Source: Chloroflexota bacterium (lineage in GTDB: Bacteria; Chloroflexota; Chloroflexia; Chloroflexales; Roseiflexaceae). From it: a stretch of DNA of 43,641 nt. Position numbers and translations under genes: made by a program. Shown piece by piece: positions 223 to 34,509 of this stretch. Position 1 is the stretch's first letter, and every line of letters starts with the position of its first letter. The notes under the pieces were generated by a model. That model was not told where the DNA came from, searched no databases, and worked only from the letters and a program-made list of their open reading frames with translations. Location: positions 1 to 43,641 of the forward strand of contig JACAEQ010000132.1 of the NCBI GenBank assembly GCA_013388755.1, written 5' to 3'.

Positions 223-2115
223 TCACCGTCGCGTTGCGGTACTTCCCTGCTCAACATCGGAAAGCAAACCATAGGGTGCTGCGGCCACCGTGTCAGGCAG
301 TGGCGACACCCAGACGCGCGTCAGCAGGAAGCGTTGCGACAGACCACGAAGTTCGCGTTCGAATGGTTCCAGGGTCACGGCTGCACGCGCCAGCACCTCG
401 CGCACCACTGGATCCCCTGTTAGAGCGTCGGTCAGGACCACATCACCGCCGACGCTCTCATTCTGCACACGCGCCGCGATATTGACCGTCGATCCGAAGT
501 AATCGAGCAGATTGTTGGCATTCACCGCAATACACGGCCCACGATGCAGACCCAGCTTGACCCGTAGCGCAGGGTTGCCGCGCGCGATTTCGCCGGCAGT
601 AAACTCGCGCTGGATCTCCAGCGCAGCCTCGACCGCGCCTTCGGCAGAGGCAAAGACCGCCATGACCGCATCGCCGATGGTCTTCACCAGTGACCCATCG
701 TGCTTGCCGATAATCGCACGCATCAGATCGAAATGGTCGCGCACGCGGGCATAGGCGGGCGAATCGCCGATCCGCTCGTAGATTGCCGTTGACCCCTTCA
801 GATCACTGAACAGGAAGGTCAGGCTACGAATGGCGATACCGGTTCCAGGCGAGAGCACTTCCGAAGAAAAGAGCTGGCGAAACTCCGCAAGTGATGTCAC
901 CAGGGCTGCGCTGGTCGCCTGAGCGCTCCAGGCACGGCGTTCCACCACCATGAGGGCTGGCGTATCCGTTGCATTCTCAATGACCAGCGTTGCATCGCCG
1001 GCGGCAATCGTGGGCGTGTCAAGATTGACCGAGGAGTCGCTAAAGGTAATATGGGCCACACGCGTACCGGCATCATCTGTCGCGTCAAGATCGACACGTG
1101 TGGTCATCTGGCGGCTGCGGAGGCGGTAACCATCAGGCGCAAGACGCAGGCGCAACTCACGGCGGCTACGCGCCGCAAGCACGATCTGGGCGGCAATGTG
1201 GGGAGTGTTGGCCGGGCCGCCAACGCAGTAGGAAACATCAACAGCTTCGCGAATTGCTGGATTGACGCTGAACCGCAACTCGATCGACTCATCGAAGTTC
1301 GCGTCGTAGCGTACGTCACACGATGGGCAATAGGTGTCATGCTCCAGTTCCGAAAGGGTTCGGACACGCTGATTGGGACCACGGCAGCTCGGGCAGAGCA
1401 CGTCCCACTCCAGGTCGAGCACACCGGCACGGGTGGCATAGAGGCACATACGCAGTACCTCCATGCGCGGCTCACCCCACTGATCGGCCAGCGCAAACGC
1501 GCGCATTTTGAGCACCTGGGGGTCATCGGCCTGACTCACATGGGCGTAGAGGCGTTCCACAAGTGATGGGCGCACACCGAACTCGCGCAGGCGTTCAGCA
1601 GCAATCTGAAGCCGGTGCGTATTCATTCGCGGCGCGCGCACCGGCGGAAGCGGGGCCTGTGCGGCGGCCATCGCCAGCGCCCCGAGCTCGCGGTAGGCGC
1701 GACGCAGGTTGCGCAGCATCTGCTGGCCGACAATCAGGCGCCCACCGAACCGCCCGACCAGATTGCGCGGCGCCATATGCACTTCGACATCCACGCGCGT
1801 CCGATCGCGCGGTAGCGGCGTAAAACAGGTTGCCGTTTTGAGGCGTTCGACAGGCAGAGGTGGGTCGAACACGCGTTCGACGGTGAACCTTTGTTCGAAG
1901 ATCCATTCGAACGGATATTCGCGCCAGGTTACCGGAACGCCAAGATAGTGTCCATAGATGATCTGCACGAGATCATGGTCGGGGTGGGTACGCTCAAACG
2001 CAGGCAGGCCAACCATGCGGTTGACGCGATCGGTATCCGAGAGGAGTGGCCAGAGGCGATCCAGCGGAGCATCGAGGACGATGGATGAGTGGAGATGAAC
2101 GGTGTACGGCGCCAT
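223..2115 (-). CDS. SRPBCC / zinc-ribbon / class III adenylate-guanylate cyclase protein
   Basis: This 630-residue protein has three parts. Residues 1-150 look like an SRPBCC (polyketide-cyclase/START-like) ligand-binding domain. Residues 160-400 contain a zinc ribbon (CPSC at 241-244 and 263-266) in the type of region (DUF5939) often found before bacterial cyclases. Residues 430-620 are a class III nucleotidyl cyclase catalytic domain with both metal-binding aspartates (FSDLKGST, D438; GDAVMAVF, D482) and the transition-state pair in NIAARVQ (N545, R549). It should make cyclic AMP or GMP, with the N-terminal domain probably sensing a hydrophobic ligand; that last point is inference. No membrane segment is visible, so it is likely cytosolic. 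I chose the ATG at 2115 over one 57 bases upstream because it starts the SRPBCC fold and follows a GGAAAGCAGG stretch. Confidence 0.85.
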   Translation of the reverse strand: MAPYTVHLHSSIVLDAPLDRLWPLLSDTDRVNRMVGLPAFERTHPDHDLVQIIYGHYLGVPVTWREYPFEWIFEQRFTVERVFDPPLPVERLKTATCFTPLPRDRTRVDVEVHMAPRNLVGRFGGRLIVGQQMLRNLRRAYRELGALAMAAAQAPLPPVRAPRMNTHRLQIAAERLREFGVRPSLVERLYAHVSQADDPQVLKMRAFALADQWGEPRMEVLRMCLYATRAGVLDLEWDVLCPSCRGPNQRVRTLSELEHDTYCPSCDVRYDANFDESIELRFSVNPAIREAVDVSYCVGGPANTPHIAAQIVLAARSRRELRLRLAPDGYRLRSRQMTTRVDLDATDDAGTRVAHITFSDSSVNLDTPTIAAGDATLVIENATDTPALMVVERRAWSAQATSAALVTSLAEFRQLFSSEVLSPGTGIAIRSLTFLFSDLKGSTAIYERIGDSPAYARVRDHFDLMRAIIGKHDGSLVKTIGDAVMAVFASAEGAVEAALEIQREFTAGEIARGNPALRVKLGLHRGPCIAVNANNLLDYFGSTVNIAARVQNESVGGDVVLTDALTGDPVVREVLARAAVTLEPFERELRGLSQRFLLTRVWVSPLPDTVAAAPYGLLSDVEQGSTATRR

Positions 2116-2315
2116 AGGCCCTGCTTTCCACAGAACTGATTGCTTTTTTGCAGGGGCCAGAACGCCCTGCATGTTCTGGTGGTGCTACCGCAGGCTGATT
2201 GCAGCCAGGAACGCGAGCACCGCGTCGCGTATGTTCATTACAGGAGTGGATTCGGGAGTACCACGCTGCCGCAGGCGAAAAACGCGGAATCCACGCCACC
2301 GCGTGACTCGCGTTC

Positions 2316-5717: not shown

Positions 5718-8672
5718 ATGACCGATCAATTCCCGTCGTTGCCTCTGACTGGTTGTCATTTCTGTGGGGCGCAACTCCAACCAGAAGACGACCACTGCTC
5801 GGATTGTGGGCGGCAATGCAAGCTCCTTGCGCAGTGTCGCATCCTCTACCATGGCGATACGACCGGTGTGGTGACAGAGGGGTATGATGTAGGCCTCGGG
5901 CGCCGCTGCCTCATACGCCGGATTGATGCGCGGCAGGCACACAATGTTCGCCGGATGATCAACATCCGTACGGTGCTCCTCCACCGAAACGATCTCCTCA
6001 CAGACATTTACGCACTGGTTGAGGATGAGACCGATATGTATCTGATAAGTGAGTATGTCGAGGGGCCTACGCTCGCGGAACTGCTGGCGGAGAGCGGCCC
6101 CTGGTCTCCTATCGAGGTTGAGTCTTTGTTGAAGGCGATGCTCCATCAGCTGGCCCAGTTGCATGAAGCGGGCATTGCCGGTTTCGGGTTACATCTTGAT
6201 GGTATCAAGAAGGTTCCTGGCCGAGGTTATGTGCTACTTGGTATAACTGACGTCGCACCCATCGAAGAAGCATCCCCCAGGTCGCGCGACGATCTGCGCG
6301 ACCTGGGCCGGCTGGCGTTATCATTACTGACTGGACGCGCCATAGAAGATGGAAGCGCGCCGGGTATCCCCACCGGCATCCCCCGAAGGCTTGGTGTGCT
6401 GCTCAATCGGCTGCTGGCCGCCGATCCGTCCGACCGGCCCGAGAGTGCTCGCGCGGCGTTACGTGCTCTACAAGGCATAAGCCGTGAGATCTATGTAGCT
6501 TTGCTGTTACTGGCTGCCATTCCTCCATTGCTTGTCGTCCAGGATCGCTGGTTTGATCATGCGATGACGAGTGAAACATTGCAGTCATTGTGGTGCTCGA
6601 ATACGTTCCTCTGTAGCCTCGCGCTCCCCCCCTATTTTCTACTGTCGTTCGTTTGCGTTGCCTGTATGAGCGGCTTGTTCTGGTTGTATTGGCGCGAGAT
6701 GGGTGAGACAGTTACTCTCACCGACACGCCGTCGCTCGTTGCCACAGGCCCATCAACAACCTCTGGTCAACTCCATCATAGTGTAGGAGCGGGTTTGAGC
6801 TGGCTCGGTGGGATCGGTATAGTGGCCAGTCTCGCGTACAGTGTGAGCGTCCAACGGTTGCCAGGGTGGGATCTGATTGTCGTGCTGACAATCTTCGCCG
6901 GTGGGCTGGCGCTCGCCGAGATGGATATGGACGGGTTTCGCAGGAGTGTGCTGGAGCGATGGAGCAGGTTGTTCGATCTTCTCCTGGCGCATATTGCCCT
7001 GCTGGGTTTCCTCGCGAGCTTCTACGCACGCGGTGCATATCTGCCGCTCTTTGTACTGTTACTACTTGTCGCAGGCTACCGCGCTCTCGCCCATCGCCAC
7101 GGTGCTCCCATCTACTGGATTGTCTCACTCGCTATTGTGTTGTTTACGATTGACATTAACGGCTGGTGGTTTGCGGTCATAGGCGACGAGTATAGTTTCT
7201 ACCGCCTCGCGTTCGAGATTGCCAGGCAGCGCAGTATCGGCGAAATCGGTCAGCAGATCTTTGACGGTACGGCGGTGTATGAAACGCACCCGTACTTCTC
7301 CTCGTTCCTTCAAGCAATACCAATGTGGTTCTTTGAGGCGTACAATTTCGGCTGGCGTTTCAGCAATCTGTACTTCAGCGCCGTGACAATCGCGCTCTGT
7401 TTCCTGGCCTTCCGGCAGTTTGTCGGGCGACGGATGGCGCTGCTGGCGGCGCTGTTGCTGGCATCCTCACATTACCTGATGTCATTTGGCAAGATAGGGT
7501 ACAACAATCTCCAGGCGCTGCTCGCGATGGGCCTGGTGCTCTACACTGCATCGCTGGCCATCCGTACCCGCCGCATCGCGCCATTCGTCCTGCATGGCCT
7601 GTCGCTCGCAGTATGTTTCTACGTTTTCCCTGCCGCTCTGTATGTGGTGCCACTGGGAATGCTGTTCATCCTGATGTTTGTGCCCCCCGTCACGCGGAAG
7701 GCGGCTACAGGCTGGCTGGCCATGGCCTTTGCCGGCGGAGCAGCGGTGTTCCCCTTGCTGCTACAGCCGGAATACTGGGCCACTAAAATTGCCGGAACTG
7801 CCTTCTACACGCCTGAGCGCATCGCGACGCCTGCTGCGGTCATCACCCACGTTTTCACGAACCTGATCTATAGCCTTACCTCATTCCTTTACGTTCCCGA
7901 TGAGACACACTTTGTGGCGGTAGCGTACGTGGATCCGCTCACAGCGGCGTTTCTTATGATCGGTGTTGTGGTGATGGTGGTTGCGGCCCGTCGGCAGCGC
8001 TTCGCGCAGTTCGCCCTGCTGGGCTGCGCCGGGTTATTGATCCTGGCCGGTGTGACCCACGACCGTGAAACGCCTTCGACGACGCGTATGTTCCTGTTGT
8101 TGCCTTTTTTTGCATTGTATGCCGCCTACGGGTTGACCTGGTGCGTGGATGAGGCGCAGCGTATCGGACTATGGCCCGGGGGTACGCGACCATTGATCGC
8201 TGCTCTGATCGTTACCATCGTGGGGCTTAATCTCTACCTGGCCTACCCGCTCTCACGTGAACGTATGGCTCGCTATCAGATGATCCAGTCACTCTTTCTG
8301 CGCACAGCCGAACAAACGTTCTCAAAAGAACATGATCCTTTGCTGCGGTTCGTCTTTCTCAACGATCCGAAACGCCTGGATGTTCCTTCATTGAAAGAGC
8401 TACTTACGGTCTACCAGGTGCCGTTTCGTGAAGATCAGTTGATCGACATCAATGCCAGTGAGTTGAGTCCGGAGACCATCGATATGGAGTTGTTACATCG
8501 TGCGGAGTCACTGGTGTTCGTCCATCCTGAACTCGATCCGCAGAAACGAGCGTATTTTGAGCAAGCGCTGCTCGATATGGGGAAGCAACCATGCCCGATA
8601 TTGACCGACTCCGGTGAGGAGCGCTTCAGACTCTGGATGGATACAGGGCTGTTATGGATATGTCATGCATAG
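5718..8672 (+). CDS. Zinc ribbon / pseudokinase / GT-C membrane glycosyltransferase
   Basis: The 984-residue protein starts with a zinc ribbon (C13, C16, C27, C30). Residues 45-255 follow the outline of a Ser/Thr kinase domain, including a hinge-like YLISEYVEGPTLAELL, but the catalytic pieces are missing: the HRD region reads GIAGFGLHLDGI, the DFG position reads GITD, and the usual VAIK lysine is replaced by arginine. It is therefore probably a pseudokinase. From about 258 onward come many hydrophobic helices of a GT39/ArnT/PMT-like glycosyltransferase. GDE at 489-491 fits the acidic motif of the first extracytoplasmic loop, which acts on polyprenyl-phosphate sugars. The likely role is membrane glycosyl transfer controlled by the cytosolic pseudokinase; the control part is inference. 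The ATG has no strong Shine-Dalgarno sequence. Confidence 0.75.
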   Translation: MTDQFPSLPLTGCHFCGAQLQPEDDHCSDCGRQCKLLAQCRILYHGDTTGVVTEGYDVGLGRRCLIRRIDARQAHNVRRMINIRTVLLHRNDLLTDIYALVEDETDMYLISEYVEGPTLAELLAESGPWSPIEVESLLKAMLHQLAQLHEAGIAGFGLHLDGIKKVPGRGYVLLGITDVAPIEEASPRSRDDLRDLGRLALSLLTGRAIEDGSAPGIPTGIPRRLGVLLNRLLAADPSDRPESARAALRALQGISREIYVALLLLAAIPPLLVVQDRWFDHAMTSETLQSLWCSNTFLCSLALPPYFLLSFVCVACMSGLFWLYWREMGETVTLTDTPSLVATGPSTTSGQLHHSVGAGLSWLGGIGIVASLAYSVSVQRLPGWDLIVVLTIFAGGLALAEMDMDGFRRSVLERWSRLFDLLLAHIALLGFLASFYARGAYLPLFVLLLLVAGYRALAHRHGAPIYWIVSLAIVLFTIDINGWWFAVIGDEYSFYRLAFEIARQRSIGEIGQQIFDGTAVYETHPYFSSFLQAIPMWFFEAYNFGWRFSNLYFSAVTIALCFLAFRQFVGRRMALLAALLLASSHYLMSFGKIGYNNLQALLAMGLVLYTASLAIRTRRIAPFVLHGLSLAVCFYVFPAALYVVPLGMLFILMFVPPVTRKAATGWLAMAFAGGAAVFPLLLQPEYWATKIAGTAFYTPERIATPAAVITHVFTNLIYSLTSFLYVPDETHFVAVAYVDPLTAAFLMIGVVVMVVAARRQRFAQFALLGCAGLLILAGVTHDRETPSTTRMFLLLPFFALYAAYGLTWCVDEAQRIGLWPGGTRPLIAALIVTIVGLNLYLAYPLSRERMARYQMIQSLFLRTAEQTFSKEHDPLLRFVFLNDPKRLDVPSLKELLTVYQVPFREDQLIDINASELSPETIDMELLHRAESLVFVHPELDPQKRAYFEQALLDMGKQPCPILTDSGEERFRLWMDTGLLWICHA

Positions 8673-9477: not shown

Positions 9478-10510
9478 ATGGCTGGGAGGAGAACCGCCTT
9501 TATGGATATTCGCAATCTGCTGCGCCATTTGCAGACATCGTCCAATGTGAGCGCGATTCAGCGCGCCACCGGGCTCAATCGCCGCACCATTATGCGCTAC
9601 GGAGGCGCAGGTCGATTTCGGCACCGCCGGCCGGCTGGTGGACCCGACGACCGGCCAGCTGCGGAAGGCCTGGGCGTTTGTCATGACCTTGGCCTATAGC
9701 CGCCATCAGGATGTCGAGTTTGTCTTCGACCAGACGCTCCCAACCTGGATTACCCTCCATCGCAACGCGTTCGCGTTCTTTGGCGACGTGCCGCAGCGCA
9801 TCGTGCTGGATCATCTCAAAGCCGGGATTACCCGCGCCTGTTTTGATGACCCGCTGGTGCAGGCCACCTATCGCGAATGCGCCGAGCATTATGGCTTTCT
9901 CATCGCGCCATGCGCGCCGCGCACTCCCGAACACAACGGCAAAGTCGAACAAGGCGGCGTGCATTACGTCAAACGCAACTTTCTGGCCGGCCGCGCGCTA
10001 ACGACGTCGCTTCAGGCCAATGCGGACGTGCGCACCTGGTGTCATACCGTCGCCGGTATGCGCAACCATGGCACGACCCACGATCCGCCGCTGCTGCGCT
10101 TTCACGCCCATGAGCAGGCCGCGTTGCATCCCTTGCCGGCCAGCCCGTATGACCTGGCCATTTGGAAACGGGCCAAACTCCACCGCGACTGCTACGTCGT
10201 GTTCGAGCAAGCCTATTATTCCGCACCGTTTCGCCTCATCGGCCAGCAGCTCTGGGTGCGCGGCGGCAGTCAGGATGTCCGGCTGTATACGTCCGACTAT
10301 CTGCTGGTAGCGACCCATACGCGCGCCCAGCGCCCAGGCGACCGCCTGAGGCATCCCGACCATTTGCCGCCCGCGAAAGCGCCGGACGTGTTGTGGACGC
10401 GGACGACCTGTCAGGCGCTGGCCGCCGAGGTTGGCCCAGCGACGACCGACCTGGTGCAGACCCTGTTGGCCGACCCGACCATCGACCGCCATGCGATGAT
10501 TGACACCTGA
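9478..10510 (+). pseudogene. istA: istA transposase pseudogene (internal deletion, frameshift, C-terminal loss)
   Basis: The start at 9478 follows AGGAGGAG and encodes the N-terminal HTH of IstA (MDIRNLLRHLQ...GLNRRTIMRY). At about 9600 the frame changes, and the sequence resumes one frame over with EAQVDFGTAGRLVDP. Roughly 100 codons normally between these points are missing. The catalytic-core residues remain: D in VDFG, D in RIVLDH and E in GKVEQGG. The C-terminus stops early at HAMIDT, where IstA proteins usually continue for several dozen residues. The gene cannot make a complete transposase, and the istB ATPase partner is absent. The exact sizes of the losses need alignment to an intact element. 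Confidence 0.85.
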
Positions 10511-10627
10511 ACGTGCCTGACTTGATGCATATGGGTGTTCTCCCCTATCGCCGCGGCTCGGTCTGTGCGATCATGCAGAAGAGTTCCAGTGTGCATTGGC
10601 GCAATCGGCGCCGATTCGAGGTATTCC

Positions 10628-12513
10628 ATGAGCTTTTCCAGCCTGCTGACCGTTGATCAGGCGACGTTTGCCGACGAGTTGCAGTTTGTGATGGAATGTT
10701 TCAGTGAGGTGCTGCACGAATCGGGTGAGCCGGAGCTGGCGCGCGCAATACGCGGGCTTGCCGGCGAGAAGCCGCTGGAACTGGCCGATGGCGCAACCGA
10801 GCGGCTCATCCAGGCGCTTTCTATCGGGTTCCAGCTCCTTGGTATGGTCGAGTAGCGGGCGGCAATCCAGTACCGGCGCAATATCGAGACGAGCCAGGGG
10901 CTTGCCGCAGTGCCTGCGCTCTGGGGAGATACATTGCGCCATCTCGAGTCCCATGGCATCGCAAGCGAAGCGATCGCCGCCGCGCTTCCCGACATCAGGG
11001 TTGAGATTGTGCTGACGGCTCACCCAACCGAGGCGAAGCGAGCGACAGTGCTTGAACACCATCGGGCGCTCTATCTGTTACTCGTGAAACGGGCCGATCC
11101 ACGCCGGACGCCCTATGAGCAGGATGAGATCCGCCGTGAGGTGCTGGCGATTCTCACGGCTCTCTGGCGTACCGGCGAGATATTTCAAGCCTGATATTGC
11201 CTCCGAACGCCGGAATAGTGTTTACTATCTGCGATCGGTCTTTCCCACTGTTCTACCGCTCCTCGACGAGCGGCTCCGCCAGGCATGGCGCACCGCCGGT
11301 GACGATCCGGCCCTGATCGCCGATGCGTCCCGCCTGCCCCGCATTCGGTTCGGCACCCGGGTCGGCGGCGATCGCGACGGCCATCCGCTCGTGACGGCCG
11401 ATGTCACGCGGGAGACGTTTGCCGAATTGCGCCTGCAGGCCCTCCTCTTGCTGCGGGATCAACTCCAGGATCTTGCGCGCTTTCTCAGCCTGTCGGATCA
11501 ACTTCAGACCCCGCCCGCGGCATTCCTCGAGCATATTGCTGATACAGCCGTTCGTCCTGGGCCGGCCGGCGCCGCAGCCGTGAATCGTAACCCGAACGAA
11601 CCCTGGCGGCAGTGGCTCAACCTCATGATCGCGCGCCTCCCCCTCTCACCCGACGATCCCGATCGCTGCTATCGCGATCCCGCTGAATCGCGACCTGTTG
11701 CTCCTCGTCGAGTCGCCGGGGATGATTGGCGCACGGCGGCTTGCCGATCAGGTGGTGCAGCCGGTGATCCGGAGTCTACGCACGTTCGGTTTCCATCTTG
11801 CGGCGCTTGACGTACGGCAGAATAGCCGTTTTCACAATCTTGCCCTCGGCCAGCTGCTCTCCGCCGCTGGTTCTGCCGAGCATAACGTAATCGAATGGAG
11901 CGAGGCGCGTCGCCTGGCGCTACTGGAAGCGGAACTGGACTCGCCGCGGCCATTCACGCGCGCCGAAGCCAGTGTCGGGCCGGAGGCCGATGCCGTGCCT
12001 GGCGCCTGCCGGGCGATTGCTGCAGAAGTGCGGACCAATGGCCCGGCAGGTGTGGGCGCCCTGATTGTCAGTATGACCTGCAGTGTTGCCGATCTCCTGG
12101 TCGTCTACCTGTTTGCCCGTGAAACTGGTCTGCTGATCGATACTTACATTCTCAGCAACGCGGCGACGAGCATTGCCATTGCCGATCCGGAGGTAATGGG
12201 CCGGTACGCAGATCTTGTCGAAGACCCGATTCTGCGTACGGCGATGTTGCAACGTATTCGTGCCGAGTATGAACGCACGGAGCGGATGCTCGAACCTGTG
12301 TACGGCGCTCCCCTTGCTGTGCGACGACCAAACGTTCATGTGATGGTGCAGGCGCGCTCCGCTGGCTTGCGGGTGTTGCACCGGCAGCAGATTGCCCTGC
12401 TGCGACGCTGGCGTGGGAGCGCTGCGAACGATCGCGCGGATGCGGCGACGCTGGTGCCGCAGTTGTTGCTCACAATTAACGCAATTGCCGGCGGGCTCGG
12501 GGCGACCGGCTGA
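10628..12513 (+). pseudogene. ppc: Phosphoenolpyruvate carboxylase pseudogene
   Basis: Segments of PEP carboxylase appear in order: the N-terminus from the ATG at 10628, TAHPTEAKRATVLEHHRAL with its catalytic His near 11020, RIRFGTRVGGDRDGHP near 11350, FGFHLAALDVRQNS near 11800, and the C-terminal GRYADLVEDPILR...AIAGGLGATG. It is broken four ways. A TAG at 10853-10855 stands where MVEERAA would be expected. There is an extra base near 11186, another frame change near 11682, and a large deletion near 12140 that joins GLLID to ILSNAATS. The deletion removes roughly 300 residues with the conserved GYSDSNKDGG and FHGRGGSxGRGGGP active-site loops. The enzyme normally makes oxaloacetate from PEP and bicarbonate, and this copy cannot. 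Confidence 0.93.
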
Positions 12514-16349: not shown

Positions 16350-19028
16350 TTACTGGCTCAGCCGATCCAGTTCCTGCTGCGCGAACTGGTTGCCCTTCTC
16401 GACCGCGGTACGGTAGGCGTTTCTGGCTTCGTCCACGCGACCAAGTTGTTCCAGGCTCAGGCCGAGCCAGTAGTAATTGCCCCCATCGTTCGGTGCAAGG
16501 TCAATGGCGCGACGAAAACCCGCCTCGGCATCGGCGTAGCGTTCCATGTTGTAATAGGTCCAGCCGAGGCCGAAATGCGCGTCGGCCTGGTCATCTTTAA
16601 TCGAGAGTGAGCGCTGCAGCGTGTCGAGCGCATCGTCGTAGCTTCCCAGGGCGCACTGCGTCCAGCCGAGGCCAGTGATTGCGCTCACGAATCGATCGTT
16701 CTGGTCGAGTGCCTGCTGGAAATGGGTCTCCGCCGCCTGATACGCCGCACTCTGCGCCTCGCTACCGCTTTCCTGGGCAAATGCCTTGTTCATGTGCGCC
16801 CAGCCCAGGCTGGCAAAGATGGTCGGATCATAGGGCGCGACTTCGGCGGCCTGTTCAAGCGCCGCAATCGCACCGTCGTAGTCGGGTGGCGTCTGCGCCT
16901 GCAACGCACGACCCTTGCCGATATACGCATCCGTGTCCTGTGGATTGAGGGCGATCGCCTTATCAAATTCGCCGATGGCGCCGGCATAATCTTCAAGATA
17001 GTAGAGGTTCCAGCCGAGGCCGGCATGGGCGTGACCATACTCCGGATCGGCTTCCTGTGCACGCTCGAACTGCTGGCGCGCCAGTTCGAGCAGCCGCTCC
17101 ATATCCTGCCGGCTGCCGCGTGTGCTGGCGCTGGCCCCCTGGTCGTTGTAGAAATAGCCAAGGTTGGAATGGAACACGGCGATCTGGCCCTGCAACCCGA
17201 TCGCGCGGTTGAACTCGTCGCCGCCGCGCGCGACCATTGACTGGTCATTGCTGAAGAGGTACTGGTACCAGTACACCACGCCACGCGCATTGTGCGCCAG
17301 CGCCTGGAGCAGGTTCTCGCGGCCATTGGCGAGATCGATCGCCTTCTCGGCGTCGCTCACGGCCTCGTCGAGCATGGCTGCGTCGGCATCTTTCAGCGCC
17401 CGGTCCGCCTTGATGACCGACCGCGATGCGTACCCCGAAGGATGTTGCGGATCGGCGGCGACGGCGGCATCGGCGGCATCGAGCGCCTCGTTGTACTTGC
17501 CCTGGTTATGCAACGACTCGGCGAGTACGGCATGCGCCAGCACCGCCCCCTTGTCGGCCCCTATGGCGGTGCGCGCCGCCTCCTCGGCTTCCGTATAACG
17601 GTCGCGCATCTGGTAGATCAGCGCCAGGCGAGTATGCGCCTCGGCATTGTTGGCGTCGAGTTCCAGAACCTCACGGTAGGCGGCGATTGCCTGGTCGACG
17701 TTCCCGTGCTGAGCAAATGCCTGGTGCGCACGCGCGAGCGCAGCATCAGGCGCCTGCCCGCCATTACCAGACGGCCTCAGCGCCATAAAGGCGACGGCAG
17801 CGATCAGGAGCGCCACGGCGACTGCACCGATCACCAGGCCGGAACCGCCACGCTTCTTGGCCGGTGCAGAGGTTGTGGCGACAGCAGGCGTTCCTGCGGC
17901 ATACTGCGTGGCCGGCACGCCCTGTGGCGGCGAACTCGGGGGGGGGGTGGCCGGCGGCAACCCGAAGCCCGGCTGCGATGATACGACCGTCGGAATGCCA
18001 GACGGTGGCGATGCCTGGGGCGGCGCCTGATCACGCTGGGTTGGCATGCCATATGCCGGTGATGGAGGCGGCGTCTGCAAGCGGGGTGCAGGCGTACCCG
18101 CAACGGGTGACGGCGGCGTTGTACGCACATACGACAGCGGGGTCCCGGCTGGTGGCGAGACGGGTCGCGCCACACTGGCAAGGTTTGCCGAACCAAGGCC
18201 GGCCGCATGCTTCAACGCCGTCACCAGTTCGCCGGCGCTCGCGTAGCGCGCCTCAGGCTTACGGGCCAGCGAACGCATGATCACATCCTCGACCGGTAAT
18301 GGTAGATCACCACGATAATCGCGCGGCGGCGTTGGCGCCTGCTGAAGGCGCGCCACCAGCATGGCCAGTGGCGTATCGGCCTTGAACGGCATGTGACCGG
18401 TGAGCATTTCATACAGAACCACGCCGAGCGCATAGATGTCGGTGGCCGGGCCGACATTCGGCAGCCCTTGCGCCTGCTCCGGCGACATATACTCCGGCGT
18501 GCCCATGACCGTGCCGGCGACGGTCAGGCCGCCACCGCCGGCAGTGCCGCGCGCCAGGCCAAAATCGGTCAGGTACACCCAGCCGCCGCGGTCGAGCATC
18601 ATGTTCGATGGCTTGATGTCGCGGTGGATAACGCCGCGGCTATGGGCATAATCAAGCGCTCCGGCAACCTGCTCGATCAGCGCCGCAGCTTCCGCAATCG
18701 GCAGGGCGCCACGCTCGTGAATAATCTCTTTCAGCGTACGCCCGTCGATGAACTTCATCGCGATATAGTGTAGCCCTTCGGCTTCATCAACGACATAGAT
18801 CGGGACGATGTTCGGATGCTCCAGCGCCGCAGCGCTATCGGCTTCCTGGCGGAAACGGGCGATGTAGGTGCGGTCAAGCCCAAGTTCAGGGGGCAGCACC
18901 TTGAGCGCCACAATCCGGTTGGGCGATGTCTGCCGCGCTTTGTAGACCACGGCCATGCCGCCGCGTCCCAGCTCGGCGAGGATCTCGAACCGACCAATGG
19001 TTCGACCGACAAGGTTTAACTCGGGCAT
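16350..19028 (-). CDS. Membrane Ser/Thr protein kinase with extracytoplasmic TPR repeats
   Basis: The 892-residue protein begins with a complete PknB-type kinase domain (about residues 10-275): GRGGMAVVYK P-loop, ALK lysine (K43), HRDIKPSN (D137), DFG (155-157) and SPE (182-184). A long Pro/Ser/Thr linker of TPPPSPxxGxP repeats follows (about 280-385), then one membrane helix (GLVIGAVAVALLIAAVAFMAL, near 393-415), then a C-terminal half made of TPR repeats. By topology the kinase is inside and the TPRs outside, so the TPRs probably bind an envelope ligand or partner; this is inference. The coding strand has a run of ten C within the linker (17938-17947), a possible slippage site. The esterase gene follows. 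Confidence 0.93.
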   Translation of the reverse strand: MPELNLVGRTIGRFEILAELGRGGMAVVYKARQTSPNRIVALKVLPPELGLDRTYIARFRQEADSAAALEHPNIVPIYVVDEAEGLHYIAMKFIDGRTLKEIIHERGALPIAEAAALIEQVAGALDYAHSRGVIHRDIKPSNMMLDRGGWVYLTDFGLARGTAGGGGLTVAGTVMGTPEYMSPEQAQGLPNVGPATDIYALGVVLYEMLTGHMPFKADTPLAMLVARLQQAPTPPRDYRGDLPLPVEDVIMRSLARKPEARYASAGELVTALKHAAGLGSANLASVARPVSPPAGTPLSYVRTTPPSPVAGTPAPRLQTPPPSPAYGMPTQRDQAPPQASPPSGIPTVVSSQPGFGLPPATPPPSSPPQGVPATQYAAGTPAVATTSAPAKKRGGSGLVIGAVAVALLIAAVAFMALRPSGNGGQAPDAALARAHQAFAQHGNVDQAIAAYREVLELDANNAEAHTRLALIYQMRDRYTEAEEAARTAIGADKGAVLAHAVLAESLHNQGKYNEALDAADAAVAADPQHPSGYASRSVIKADRALKDADAAMLDEAVSDAEKAIDLANGRENLLQALAHNARGVVYWYQYLFSNDQSMVARGGDEFNRAIGLQGQIAVFHSNLGYFYNDQGASASTRGSRQDMERLLELARQQFERAQEADPEYGHAHAGLGWNLYYLEDYAGAIGEFDKAIALNPQDTDAYIGKGRALQAQTPPDYDGAIAALEQAAEVAPYDPTIFASLGWAHMNKAFAQESGSEAQSAAYQAAETHFQQALDQNDRFVSAITGLGWTQCALGSYDDALDTLQRSLSIKDDQADAHFGLGWTYYNMERYADAEAGFRRAIDLAPNDGGNYYWLGLSLEQLGRVDEARNAYRTAVEKGNQFAQQELDRLSQ

Positions 19029-30495: not shown

Positions 30496-33400
30496 CTATC
30501 CTCGCCCTGCTATCCAGCTATACTCGCGCATTGCATCGCGGAAGCGACCCTGACGCGAATAGGCGTCACCCAGTGTGCGGTGCAACTGGCGCAGCACGCT
30601 GGTATCTTCGACATCAGCGATGAGATCGCTCAAATCCTCGACAATCTCATCGAGCATCACATTCCGTTTGATAAGATCGCGGTAGTGGCGCACTGCCAGT
30701 TCAGGCATGCCTGCCTGGCCACCAACCCGCGCGATCGAGAGTCGAAGCACATGGTTGTGCGGCTCAGCTTCGAGCATGCGCAGGTATTCGTCGAGCTCCG
30801 GGTTGCCACTCATCGGCTCCGGCTCGCCGTGAGCCGGCACGGACGGAGCAGCCTCAGCCACCGGCGGCGGGCCGGATGGCACGCGCGGCGCCGGCACAGG
30901 CACTTGCGGCGGTGGAGGAGCAGCGCGTTTGATCACCGGCGGTTCAACCGGCGGCGGCGCCTCCTCTGCCGGCGCCTCTGCGACCGGCTCAAGCTCAGGC
31001 AATGCAAACGACTCGCGTTCGGCCTCAGCGGGCGCAGCCGGCGCCATACCGCCAAGATCGAGCATGGCGATCTCATCCGCTGACAGCCCCAGTTCCTCCA
31101 GGGAGAACGGCGTCAGCACAGCTGGCTCTTCCATCGGCGCCTGTTCCGGTTCCTCAGCCGCACCTGCAGCGGCGGCCAGCATATCAATCTCGTCGCTCGT
31201 CAGGCCGAGTTCCTCGAGTGAGAAGGGACGCATGACCTCCTCTTCCGCCACAAGCGCCCCAGGTACCGGTTCAACCCCGATCTCAGCCTCGCCTGACGGG
31301 AGTTCCTCCGCGTATTCGGCTTCGAGATCAATGATCTCGTCGCCATCACGAATCTGAATATGGGCAGCGTGCAGGTTACGCCCGATCTCGTCAATCCGCG
31401 CCGCCTCGGCCTCAGGATCTGCAACAGCCGCGATGATGTCGGCGATGTCGACGTAGCCGCGCTCGCGACCGAGCGCAATCAACTGATCAACAACAGCATC
31501 GCCGCTGCCTGCCTCAACCATGGTTTCAGGCGTCTCGGCAACGACCGGTGCGGTGAAGGTCTCCAGTTCCTCACCCCATTCCACGTCGCCACCGGTGCCA
31601 AGCGCTGCCAGTTCTTCCTCGGTAATGCCAAGCCGGCTCTCGTCGTACTCCTCGACTTCTTCTTCAAATGCACCCACCAGATCAAGCTCAGCCAGTTCCT
31701 CCGCCGAAAGGCCGAGGTCCGTGAGCGAGAACGGCTGCAGATCGCCGAGCGCCAACCCTTCTTCCTCGCCCGCCTGCTGTTCAGGCGCCATTGATGCCGC
31801 CTCCAGGTCACCAGGTTCCAGTGCGAACGTACCGGCGGCTTCGGAGGACATTTCTGGCTCCGCCTCACGGACAGGAGGACTCATATCACCGAGACCAAGC
31901 GCGGCGATTTCTTCCTCGCTCAGCCCCAGATCGGCGAAGGAGAAGGGCTGAATCTCACCGCTGGCGAGGCCGGCCTCGATACTCTCGATCTCAGGCGCTT
32001 GTGCCACCGGCGGGGCCACCGCTTCGCTCACGACCGGCGCTTCTGCCACCGGCGGGGCCACCGCTTCGCTCACGACCGGCGCTTCTGCAGATACACTCAG
32101 ACCGAGCGCGGCGATTTCTTCCTCGCTCAGCCCCAGATCCGCGAAAGAGAAAGGCTGAATCTCACCACTGGCGAGGCCAGCTTCAATACTCTCGATCTCA
32201 ACAGCGGCATGTGGGATGGGGCCAGGCGTGCCGGCAGGAGGCGTCTCCCCCATGGTGGGCGCGAGCTCACCCAGATCAGGCGCGGCAAGTTCCTCGCCAG
32301 GGCCGAGATCAGCCGGTGAGAACGGTTCTAGCACAGCGCCCTGAGCAGTTTCGGCTATCGGGGCGCCAGGGCCCGTCATTTCGGCGGCAAGCTCTGGTTC
32401 CTCGTCCCCGCGCAGTGGCACATCGTCGAGCGAGAACAGACCCAGATGCTCATCAGGCGTTATGGACGGGCTGGAGACCTCTTCCGGCGGTAGTGGAACA
32501 CCTTCGCGCCGTTGTTGAAGCTTGGAAAAGATGGTGCCAGATTCGGCCGGTGCCGCCGGGCGCATTGGCTCAAGGAATCGTGGCTCGGCGCGTTGTGCCG
32601 GTTGCTGCCAGCTGAACCCACGCGGTGGGAGCGGCTCTTCCTCCTCGATGGGGCTCTCAATCGCTTCTTCAGGGGCCAGGCCCGACATACGTGGCCGTTG
32701 CGGCGGCGCTGGTGGCTCATCGAGCGAGAACGGTTGCAGCGAGGGTGGTAGTTCGCCAATCTCGGCGCGCTCAGCCATGCCACCAGTTTCAAGTTCTTCC
32801 ATCGAGAACGGCTGCAGATCGGGTGGCAATTCACCGAAGTCGGTGCCCAGGTCGAAGCCAGCGCCTGGCGCTCGCCCGACACCCTCAAGATCAAGGTCAT
32901 CGAGCGAGAACGGTTGCATTGCGATGTCGATATCCTCGATAGCTGTGTCGGGCGGCACGGGCGCCTCGATACTCTCCAGGCTGGCGATCTCTGCTTCGCT
33001 GAGGCCAAGTTCTTCGAGGGTGAAGGGCTTCATCGCGCCGAGATCGAGCGCCTCCTCCGCAGGCGCGGCAGGTGGCGGCGCCTCGATACCCTCCAGGCTG
33101 GCGATCTCCGCTTCGCTGAGGCCAAGTTCTTCGAGGGTGAAGGGCTGCATCGCGCCGAGATCGAGCACCTCCTCCGCAGGCGCGGCAGGTGGCGGCGCCT
33201 CGATACTCTCCAGGCTGGCGATCTCCGCTTCGCTGAGGCCAAGTTCTTCGAGGGTGAAGGGCTGCATCGCGCCAAGGTCGAGCACCTCCTCCGCAGGCGC
33301 GGCAGGTGGCATTTCGGCAACAGGCTCGCCAGATGGCGGAACAGGTTCAGCCGGAAGCGATTCCGCGAATGCCGGAACACCGAGACCAGCAATTTCCTCA

Positions 33401-34428
33401 TCGCTCAGGCCAAGCTCTTCAAGAGTAAACGGGCGAGTATCAGCGCTGATCTCGATCTCGGTGCCATCAACCGGTTGCGAAACGACAGGGGGCGCCGTAT
33501 CGACCGCCAGCAAGCTGGCAAGAAAATCGTCACTGTCGGCATAGACGGGTGGCGGTGGCGGCGGCGGCTCAAGCACCGCGGCTACGGGAACCGCCGCTTC
33601 CATCGGGCGAGTTGGCGACAACTGCTCGACCTGCTCCACCTCACGCTGGCGCAACCATGCCTCTTCGTCCCATTCCGGCACCATCGGCTCCGGCAACTGC
33701 ACTGGCGGCATCGTATCGAAGAGCGACCGGGCAGTTGTCTGGTATGGATCCATCGCGGCGGCGGCGCGCCAGTACTGCTCACCATCGGGATTGCCAGCCG
33801 CCAGCGTAAGGTATCCGAGAATCAGGTTGGCCTTCAGCGCCTCAGGATGCGTGGCGAGAATATCGCGGCACAGATCTGCGGCCTCTTCTTCCTGTTCGTC
33901 ACGCCAGAGCGCTTCGGCCAGGGCGACCTGCGCATCAAGGCGCTCCGGCTGATCGCCGATAACCTGGCGAAACTCGGAGATTGCCTGCGGCAGCATGTGC
34001 CCTTTGGCATAGAGACGCGCCAGACCCGCGCGACTCAGGCGGAGGTGCGCATACTCGCTCCCCCAGGCTTCGGTATACAGCCGCAACAACTGGCTCCGCA
34101 ACTCAGGCATGTCGGGCTTGATTTCGAGGGCGCGTTCAAATGCCGTCACCGCGCGATCGAGACGGCCAAGCCGTTCACAGGTCATGCCGAGGCCGACATG
34201 CGCTGGAATGTGCTCAGGGTCAAAACGCAGCACCGACTCGAACGCCTCACAGGCCCGGTCATACTGGTGAGCGGCAAGATACGCCTCACCAAGCGCCTGG
34301 TAGGCGTCAATGCTCTGGGGATAACTCTGAAGGATATGCTGCGCCATCCCGATCGCACGATCGAGATCATTGCTTTCGAGCCATTGCCGGGTCTGGTCGA
34401 AGGCCGTCTGCAGGCTCATCCGTGCCAT
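30496..34428 (-). CDS. Giant TPR protein with repeated PF[ST]LEELGLS motifs and a sigma-1.1-like segment
   Basis: The 1310-residue acidic protein has TPR repeats at residues 1-225 and a TPR-like helical C-terminus (about 1205-1310). Between them is a long Pro/Ala/Glu-rich region holding about nine clear copies of a motif like QPFTLEELGLSEAEIASLE and several degenerate ones (QPFSLDDLDL, QPFSMEEL, GLFSLDDV). Residues 973-1028 (VVDQLIALGRERGYVDIADI...) resemble sigma-70 region 1.1. Three motif copies lie in near-identical 39-residue tandem units. The pattern suggests a scaffold presenting many copies of one short docking motif. Start chosen at the ATG 34428, six bases after GGGAGG. The partner and function are unknown, and the downstream Roadblock gene suggests a small-GTPase pathway (inference). 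Confidence 0.85.
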   Translation of the reverse strand: MARMSLQTAFDQTRQWLESNDLDRAIGMAQHILQSYPQSIDAYQALGEAYLAAHQYDRACEAFESVLRFDPEHIPAHVGLGMTCERLGRLDRAVTAFERALEIKPDMPELRSQLLRLYTEAWGSEYAHLRLSRAGLARLYAKGHMLPQAISEFRQVIGDQPERLDAQVALAEALWRDEQEEEAADLCRDILATHPEALKANLILGYLTLAAGNPDGEQYWRAAAAMDPYQTTARSLFDTMPPVQLPEPMVPEWDEEAWLRQREVEQVEQLSPTRPMEAAVPVAAVLEPPPPPPPVYADSDDFLASLLAVDTAPPVVSQPVDGTEIEISADTRPFTLEELGLSDEEIAGLGVPAFAESLPAEPVPPSGEPVAEMPPAAPAEEVLDLGAMQPFTLEELGLSEAEIASLESIEAPPPAAPAEEVLDLGAMQPFTLEELGLSEAEIASLEGIEAPPPAAPAEEALDLGAMKPFTLEELGLSEAEIASLESIEAPVPPDTAIEDIDIAMQPFSLDDLDLEGVGRAPGAGFDLGTDFGELPPDLQPFSMEELETGGMAERAEIGELPPSLQPFSLDEPPAPPQRPRMSGLAPEEAIESPIEEEEPLPPRGFSWQQPAQRAEPRFLEPMRPAAPAESGTIFSKLQQRREGVPLPPEEVSSPSITPDEHLGLFSLDDVPLRGDEEPELAAEMTGPGAPIAETAQGAVLEPFSPADLGPGEELAAPDLGELAPTMGETPPAGTPGPIPHAAVEIESIEAGLASGEIQPFSFADLGLSEEEIAALGLSVSAEAPVVSEAVAPPVAEAPVVSEAVAPPVAQAPEIESIEAGLASGEIQPFSFADLGLSEEEIAALGLGDMSPPVREAEPEMSSEAAGTFALEPGDLEAASMAPEQQAGEEEGLALGDLQPFSLTDLGLSAEELAELDLVGAFEEEVEEYDESRLGITEEELAALGTGGDVEWGEELETFTAPVVAETPETMVEAGSGDAVVDQLIALGRERGYVDIADIIAAVADPEAEAARIDEIGRNLHAAHIQIRDGDEIIDLEAEYAEELPSGEAEIGVEPVPGALVAEEEVMRPFSLEELGLTSDEIDMLAAAAGAAEEPEQAPMEEPAVLTPFSLEELGLSADEIAMLDLGGMAPAAPAEAERESFALPELEPVAEAPAEEAPPPVEPPVIKRAAPPPPQVPVPAPRVPSGPPPVAEAAPSVPAHGEPEPMSGNPELDEYLRMLEAEPHNHVLRLSIARVGGQAGMPELAVRHYRDLIKRNVMLDEIVEDLSDLIADVEDTSVLRQLHRTLGDAYSRQGRFRDAMREYSWIAGRG
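31346..31510 (-). other. Segment resembling sigma-70 region 1.1 inside the motif-array protein
   Basis: The segment VVDQLIALGRERGYVDIADI, followed by VADPEAEAARIDEIGRNLHA and AHIQIRDGDE, follows the pattern of sigma region 1.1 (L-x2-GKE-x-GYLT-x-E-I...D-x-I-x-I...LGI-x-V). No other sigma region is present in this protein. The match is by pattern only. Confidence 0.5.
31897..32199. repeat. Duplicated coding blocks within the motif-array gene
   Basis: Two near-identical stretches (31897-31991 and 32102-32199) each encode EIQPFSFADLGLSEEEIAAL with its flank. Between them a 42-bp unit (VVSEAVAPPVAEAP) is repeated from 32003 and 32045. Confidence 0.75.
32961..33311. repeat. Three tandem 117-bp coding repeats in the motif-array gene
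   Basis: Identical phase points at 33001, 33118 and 33235 give a 117-bp (39-codon) period. Each unit holds one PFTLEELGLSEAEIASLE copy and an APPPAAPAEE linker. Near-identity at DNA level points to recent duplication or gene conversion. Confidence 0.9.
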
Positions 34429-34509
34429 CACGATCCTCCCGGTGTCCGAACTGCATCGACAGCAGTGTCGTGTAATCTTTTACGCCATGAATGGGAACTA
34501 CACGTGCCA

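Follow-up and report, generated by a model that had tools for sequence, protein, structure and literature searches.

One gene in the window (the whole 43,641-nucleotide stretch analyzed here) encodes a zinc ribbon and a protein kinase domain stripped of its catalytic motifs, fused to an apparently intact polytopic GT-C glycosyltransferase (Table 1). The fusion is a real combination, seen so far in one genome. The best explanation, to which we give about an even chance, is that the dead kinase domain acts as a cytoplasmic handle that would tie the GT-C enzyme to a Ser/Thr phosphorylation network.

Table 1. Positions in the window of the fusion gene, its features, and two other genes
Feature	Positions	Strand	Evidence or remark
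Whole gene: zinc ribbon, pseudokinase, and GT-C glycosyltransferase	5718..8672	+	984 aa
Zinc ribbon, residues 12-35	5751..5822	+	Cys 13, 16, 27, 30
Pseudokinase domain, residues 36-252	5823..6473	+	hhalign 99.9%; AlphaFold2 model; PknB match Z 21.5
VAIK lysine position, here Arg67	5916..5918	+	Alignment with active relatives
HRD position, here Gly155-Phe156-Gly157	6180..6188	+	Alignment with active relatives
DFG position, here Gly175-Ile176-Thr177	6240..6248	+	Alignment; followed by activation-loop deletion of ~20 residues
Seven predicted membrane helices, residues 257-480	6486..7157	+	Ahead of catalytic loop; family homology begins
Gly489-Asp490-Glu491, first large extracytoplasmic loop	7182..7190	+	Asp490 invariant, 25/25
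PMT_2 domain (PF13231), residues 524-679	7287..7754	+	Pfam match
C-terminal soluble part, residues 846-984	8253..8669	+	Aligned across family
Upstream neighbor: GT4 glycosyltransferase and class I methyltransferase, 729 aa	3292..5481	+	Glycan-type context
Ser/Thr kinase with TPR repeats	16350..19028	-	Pfam; same window, one possible partner kinase

The protein is read from a single open frame with an ATG start and no internal stop codons. The join is in frame and lies exactly between two complete domains, with similar third-position G+C on either side (0.62 and 0.63). Homology to stand-alone transferases starts at residue 257, and the codons ATG, GTG, and TTG are absent between residues 228 and 261; with no start codon there, a separate transferase with an intact first helix is unlikely to be made. 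The place of the join, the similar G+C, and the missing start codon argue against an assembly artifact, in which a contig misjoin would have put a kinase fragment ahead of a transferase, and so does the degenerate state of the kinase domain, which would not be expected had an active kinase gene been newly misjoined. A misjoin would fit with the appearance of the fusion in a single assembly and with the division of that genome into 145 contigs; on balance, we regard it as very improbable.

Residues 12 to 252 belong to the protein kinase superfamily, with a Hanks-type fold, as judged from profile homology and a structure model. Along its whole length, this region matched five active zinc-ribbon kinases (hhalign probability 99.9%, E 1.2e-31), and the Pfam Pkinase match was partial (residues 69 to 153, E 7e-6) and under the gathering score. 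An AlphaFold2 model of residues 1 to 262 predicted a kinase fold (pLDDT 74, pTM 0.70) that matched PknB (5u94) with a Z score of 21.5 and 2.9 Å over 219 residues; the input alignment included active kinases, and the model is therefore not independent of the homology. The earlier note had described the N-terminal part as kinase-like, and both the full-length hhalign homology and the modeled fold bear this out. The zinc ribbon follows the pattern C13-x2-C16 ... C27-x2-C30, and each of the four Cys positions that the active relatives conserve is retained in the 984-residue protein.

These relatives are zinc-ribbon Ser/Thr kinases (L002-L010, L013, and L021) that whole-genome searches recovered within the same order, in families other than that of the host; they carry two CxxC knuckles followed by a kinase. 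They share the same two N-terminal domains with the fusion protein, at 27 to 37% identity, but they retain the Lys, HRDxKPxN, DFG, and the activation loop, and no GT-C enzyme follows. The C-terminal modules of five of them (L002, L003, L007, L008, and L010) are very diverse and by eye include WD40-like, solute-binding, and CAP-like parts.

All three residues by which an active protein kinase is recognized (the VAIK Lys, the HRD Asp, and the DFG Asp) are replaced or absent, as the earlier note had read from the sequence. In the alignment, Arg67 stands at the VAIK Lys; the HRDxKPxN position reads G-F-G-L-H-L-D-G, with the catalytic-loop Lys and Asn gone; and the DFG site is G-I-T, with Asp and Phe missing. 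The αC Glu is replaced by Met80, two of the three glycines of the glycine loop are lost, and most of the activation loop is gone through a deletion of about 20 residues. With conservation in 90% or more of the active relatives as the cutoff, 2 of 13 catalytic positions were kept, versus 33 of 57 other conserved positions (Fisher p = 0.012; a small test, with classes chosen by the authors). Judged from this alignment, the loss targets catalysis and spares the zinc cysteines and the kinase core.

This pattern of loss bears on the nucleotide sensing suggested in the earlier note. A pocket that still bound a nucleotide or a phosphoprotein could switch the transferase upon binding, and the kinase fold is kept in the model. 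Nucleotide binding also occurs in some pseudokinases that have no canonical motifs, which likewise favors such a sensor. Against it, nearly every ATP- or metal-binding residue checked is gone (the β3 Lys, the αC Glu, two of the three glycine-loop glycines, the HRD Asp, the catalytic-loop Asn, and the DFG Asp), and the ActPs3 pseudokinase of MviN, a polytopic cell-wall membrane protein of Mycobacterium tuberculosis with similar losses, is reported to bind neither ATP nor Mg (PMC12599244). Nucleotide sensing is thus disfavored, and we consider a sensor of either kind improbable.

The transferase part, in turn, is apparently intact, with its catalytic residues kept. The PMT_2 match (PF13231) scored 29.6 bits against a cutoff of 26.1, and the same domain was matched by all seven aligned family members. 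Six residues (D490 of the GDE motif, W546, G594, Y595, Y635, and H731) are the same in all 25 family members, and E491 is found in 23 of 25, with D in the other two. The acidic residue of the GDE motif in the first loop is the expected catalytic/metal site of GT-C enzymes. Hydropathy places seven helices ahead of the GDE loop, so that the pseudokinase would be cytoplasmic if this loop lies outside. A sequence search of solved structures with the transferase gave no real relative (the single match, E 1.1, is chance), and a model of residues 257 to 984, built from an alignment of two sequences, reached a pLDDT of 39, too low to show a fold. The joining of a pseudokinase to a GT-C transferase, as first noted, is supported.

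A contig scan and profile searches together found 24 stand-alone relatives of the transferase part in other Chloroflexota, where the family mainly occurs (L035, L037, L047-L050, L098-L106, and L110-L118). The homologue from the contig scan was an 815-residue stand-alone protein from an Anaerolineales MAG with 38% identity over residues 257 to 984; in a seven-row alignment, identity between the GT part and stand-alone relatives was 35 to 40% over about 730 residues. The stand-alone proteins have the same GDE loop and are homologous throughout the membrane part, but they are without a kinase domain and their N-termini are short and variable. A profile of the pseudokinase and its active relatives matched the 984-residue protein only and none of the 24. 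In a midpoint-rooted tree, the 984-residue protein fell within the stand-alone clade (clade support, 100/99), a placement to be read at the level of the clade. Residues 331 to 347, a Thr-rich segment of the loop that follows the second helix, were weighed as a phosphosite and set aside, since the corresponding loop of a relative is Ser rich.

Inspection by eye revealed short coiled-coil-like N-termini in seven stand-alone relatives (L048, L049, L106, L110, L112, L113, and L115) and an extra N-terminal membrane helix in three (L035, L104, and L112), and some carry a longer N-terminal extension. Because the N-termini vary across the family, the N-terminal slot appears to tolerate docking modules. 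Since the stand-alone relatives are also kinase free, the pseudokinase appears to have been added later, plugged in at this variable slot. Neighborhoods compared by eye around five stand-alone relatives and L035 held no common partner gene.

The search for a second fusion amounted to 1,725 genome searches, repeats included, with large groups sampled. None was found in 158 genomes of the class (full-protein search) or, with transferase profiles, in samples spread evenly across the phylum, class, and order. Coverage outside the phylum consisted of a single pattern scan seeded from the 984-residue protein itself, with a reach of close relatives. In viral contigs, no pseudokinase relative turned up. 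The earlier note would have counted a combination unique to this assembly against its proposal. In part this applies, as the genomes searched yielded no other case.

The lack of a second genome that keeps the fusion fits an alternative in which an active zinc-ribbon kinase was fused to the transferase by rearrangement and decayed since nothing depended on its activity, leaving at most a passive folding or oligomerizing cap. The joint loss of all catalytic motifs, and a family that copes with short N-termini, point the same way. A passive remnant is harder to reconcile with zinc cysteines and many core positions that are kept where catalytic ones are lost, and with a frame that is open through 256 codons, though this is partly forced by the frame shared with the transferase. 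We hold such decay to be a real possibility, at somewhat less than an even chance; it would be a clean case of kinase decay after gene fusion.

A cytoplasmic handle, the explanation preferred here, would consist of the zinc ribbon and dead kinase domain tethered at the N-terminus of the polytopic GT-C glycosyltransferase. From what is known of the family, the transferase would take a lipid-linked sugar donor and act at the extracytoplasmic side of the membrane. Less surely, and by analogy with the recruitment of FhaA by MviN, the pseudokinase may be a protein-docking or oligomerizing handle, a role proposed in place of a nucleotide sensor. It is a more tentative proposal, held at below even confidence, that the pseudokinase regulates the GT-C enzyme in cis and, via the N-terminal slot, couples surface glycosylation to Ser/Thr phosphorylation signaling. 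If it does, one protein would connect bacterial Ser/Thr signaling with cell-surface glycosylation, and the idea drawn from MviN, a flippase-type protein of Actinobacteria, would then also cover a sugar-transferring enzyme in Chloroflexota. Natural kinase-free controls are available in the 24 stand-alone relatives.

A literature search found no paper describing a kinase-GT-C fusion or a pseudokinase that directly gates a membrane glycosyltransferase, in agreement with the earlier note, which knew of no described case of such gating; MviN, however, is a close precedent (PMC12599244). Like the fusion protein, MviN is an envelope-glycan membrane protein whose pseudokinase motifs are all degraded and whose activation loop is shortened; PknB phosphorylates its tail, and the FHA protein FhaA is recruited (PMC12599244). 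The two differ in that the MviN pseudokinase (residues 710 to 942) comes after the membrane part, whereas the one described here is N-terminal, and in that no N-terminal zinc ribbon is described for MviN, whose structure is solved and whose partner FhaA has been tested. They differ also in the membrane part, which in MviN is a MurJ-type protein, of the peptidoglycan-precursor flippase type, and not a GT-C enzyme. EssB/YukC of Firmicutes secretion systems is likewise a membrane protein with a degraded pseudokinase, in both motifs and activation loop (PMC12599244), but it is a monotopic secretion-system component and not an enzyme.

The host genome encodes 22 kinases above the cutoff and has 25 FHA matches. 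These form a background that would allow docking wiring and do not themselves speak for a link; nothing among partner genes, phosphosites, or FHA neighbors points to the 984-residue protein. Elsewhere in the same genome, one contig bears a cluster (C93:2692-14212) of three matches to kinases and several to FHA domains.

Several other genes of the window were observed in passing. A phosphoenolpyruvate carboxylase is spread across several frames at 10535-12513 (+), with PF00311 matches in 11115-11807 and 11698-12510, and reflects either a broken gene or indel errors; a transposase (rve and Mu-transpos_C_2, 9638-10507) lies just upstream of it. A TPR protein of 1311 aa at 30499-34431 (-) has a Sigma70_r1_1 match at residues 980 to 1035 (E 1.6e-6). 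The gene at 223-2172 (-) encodes an adenylate/guanylate cyclase domain together with DUF5939; a polyketide-cyclase-like match there is weak.
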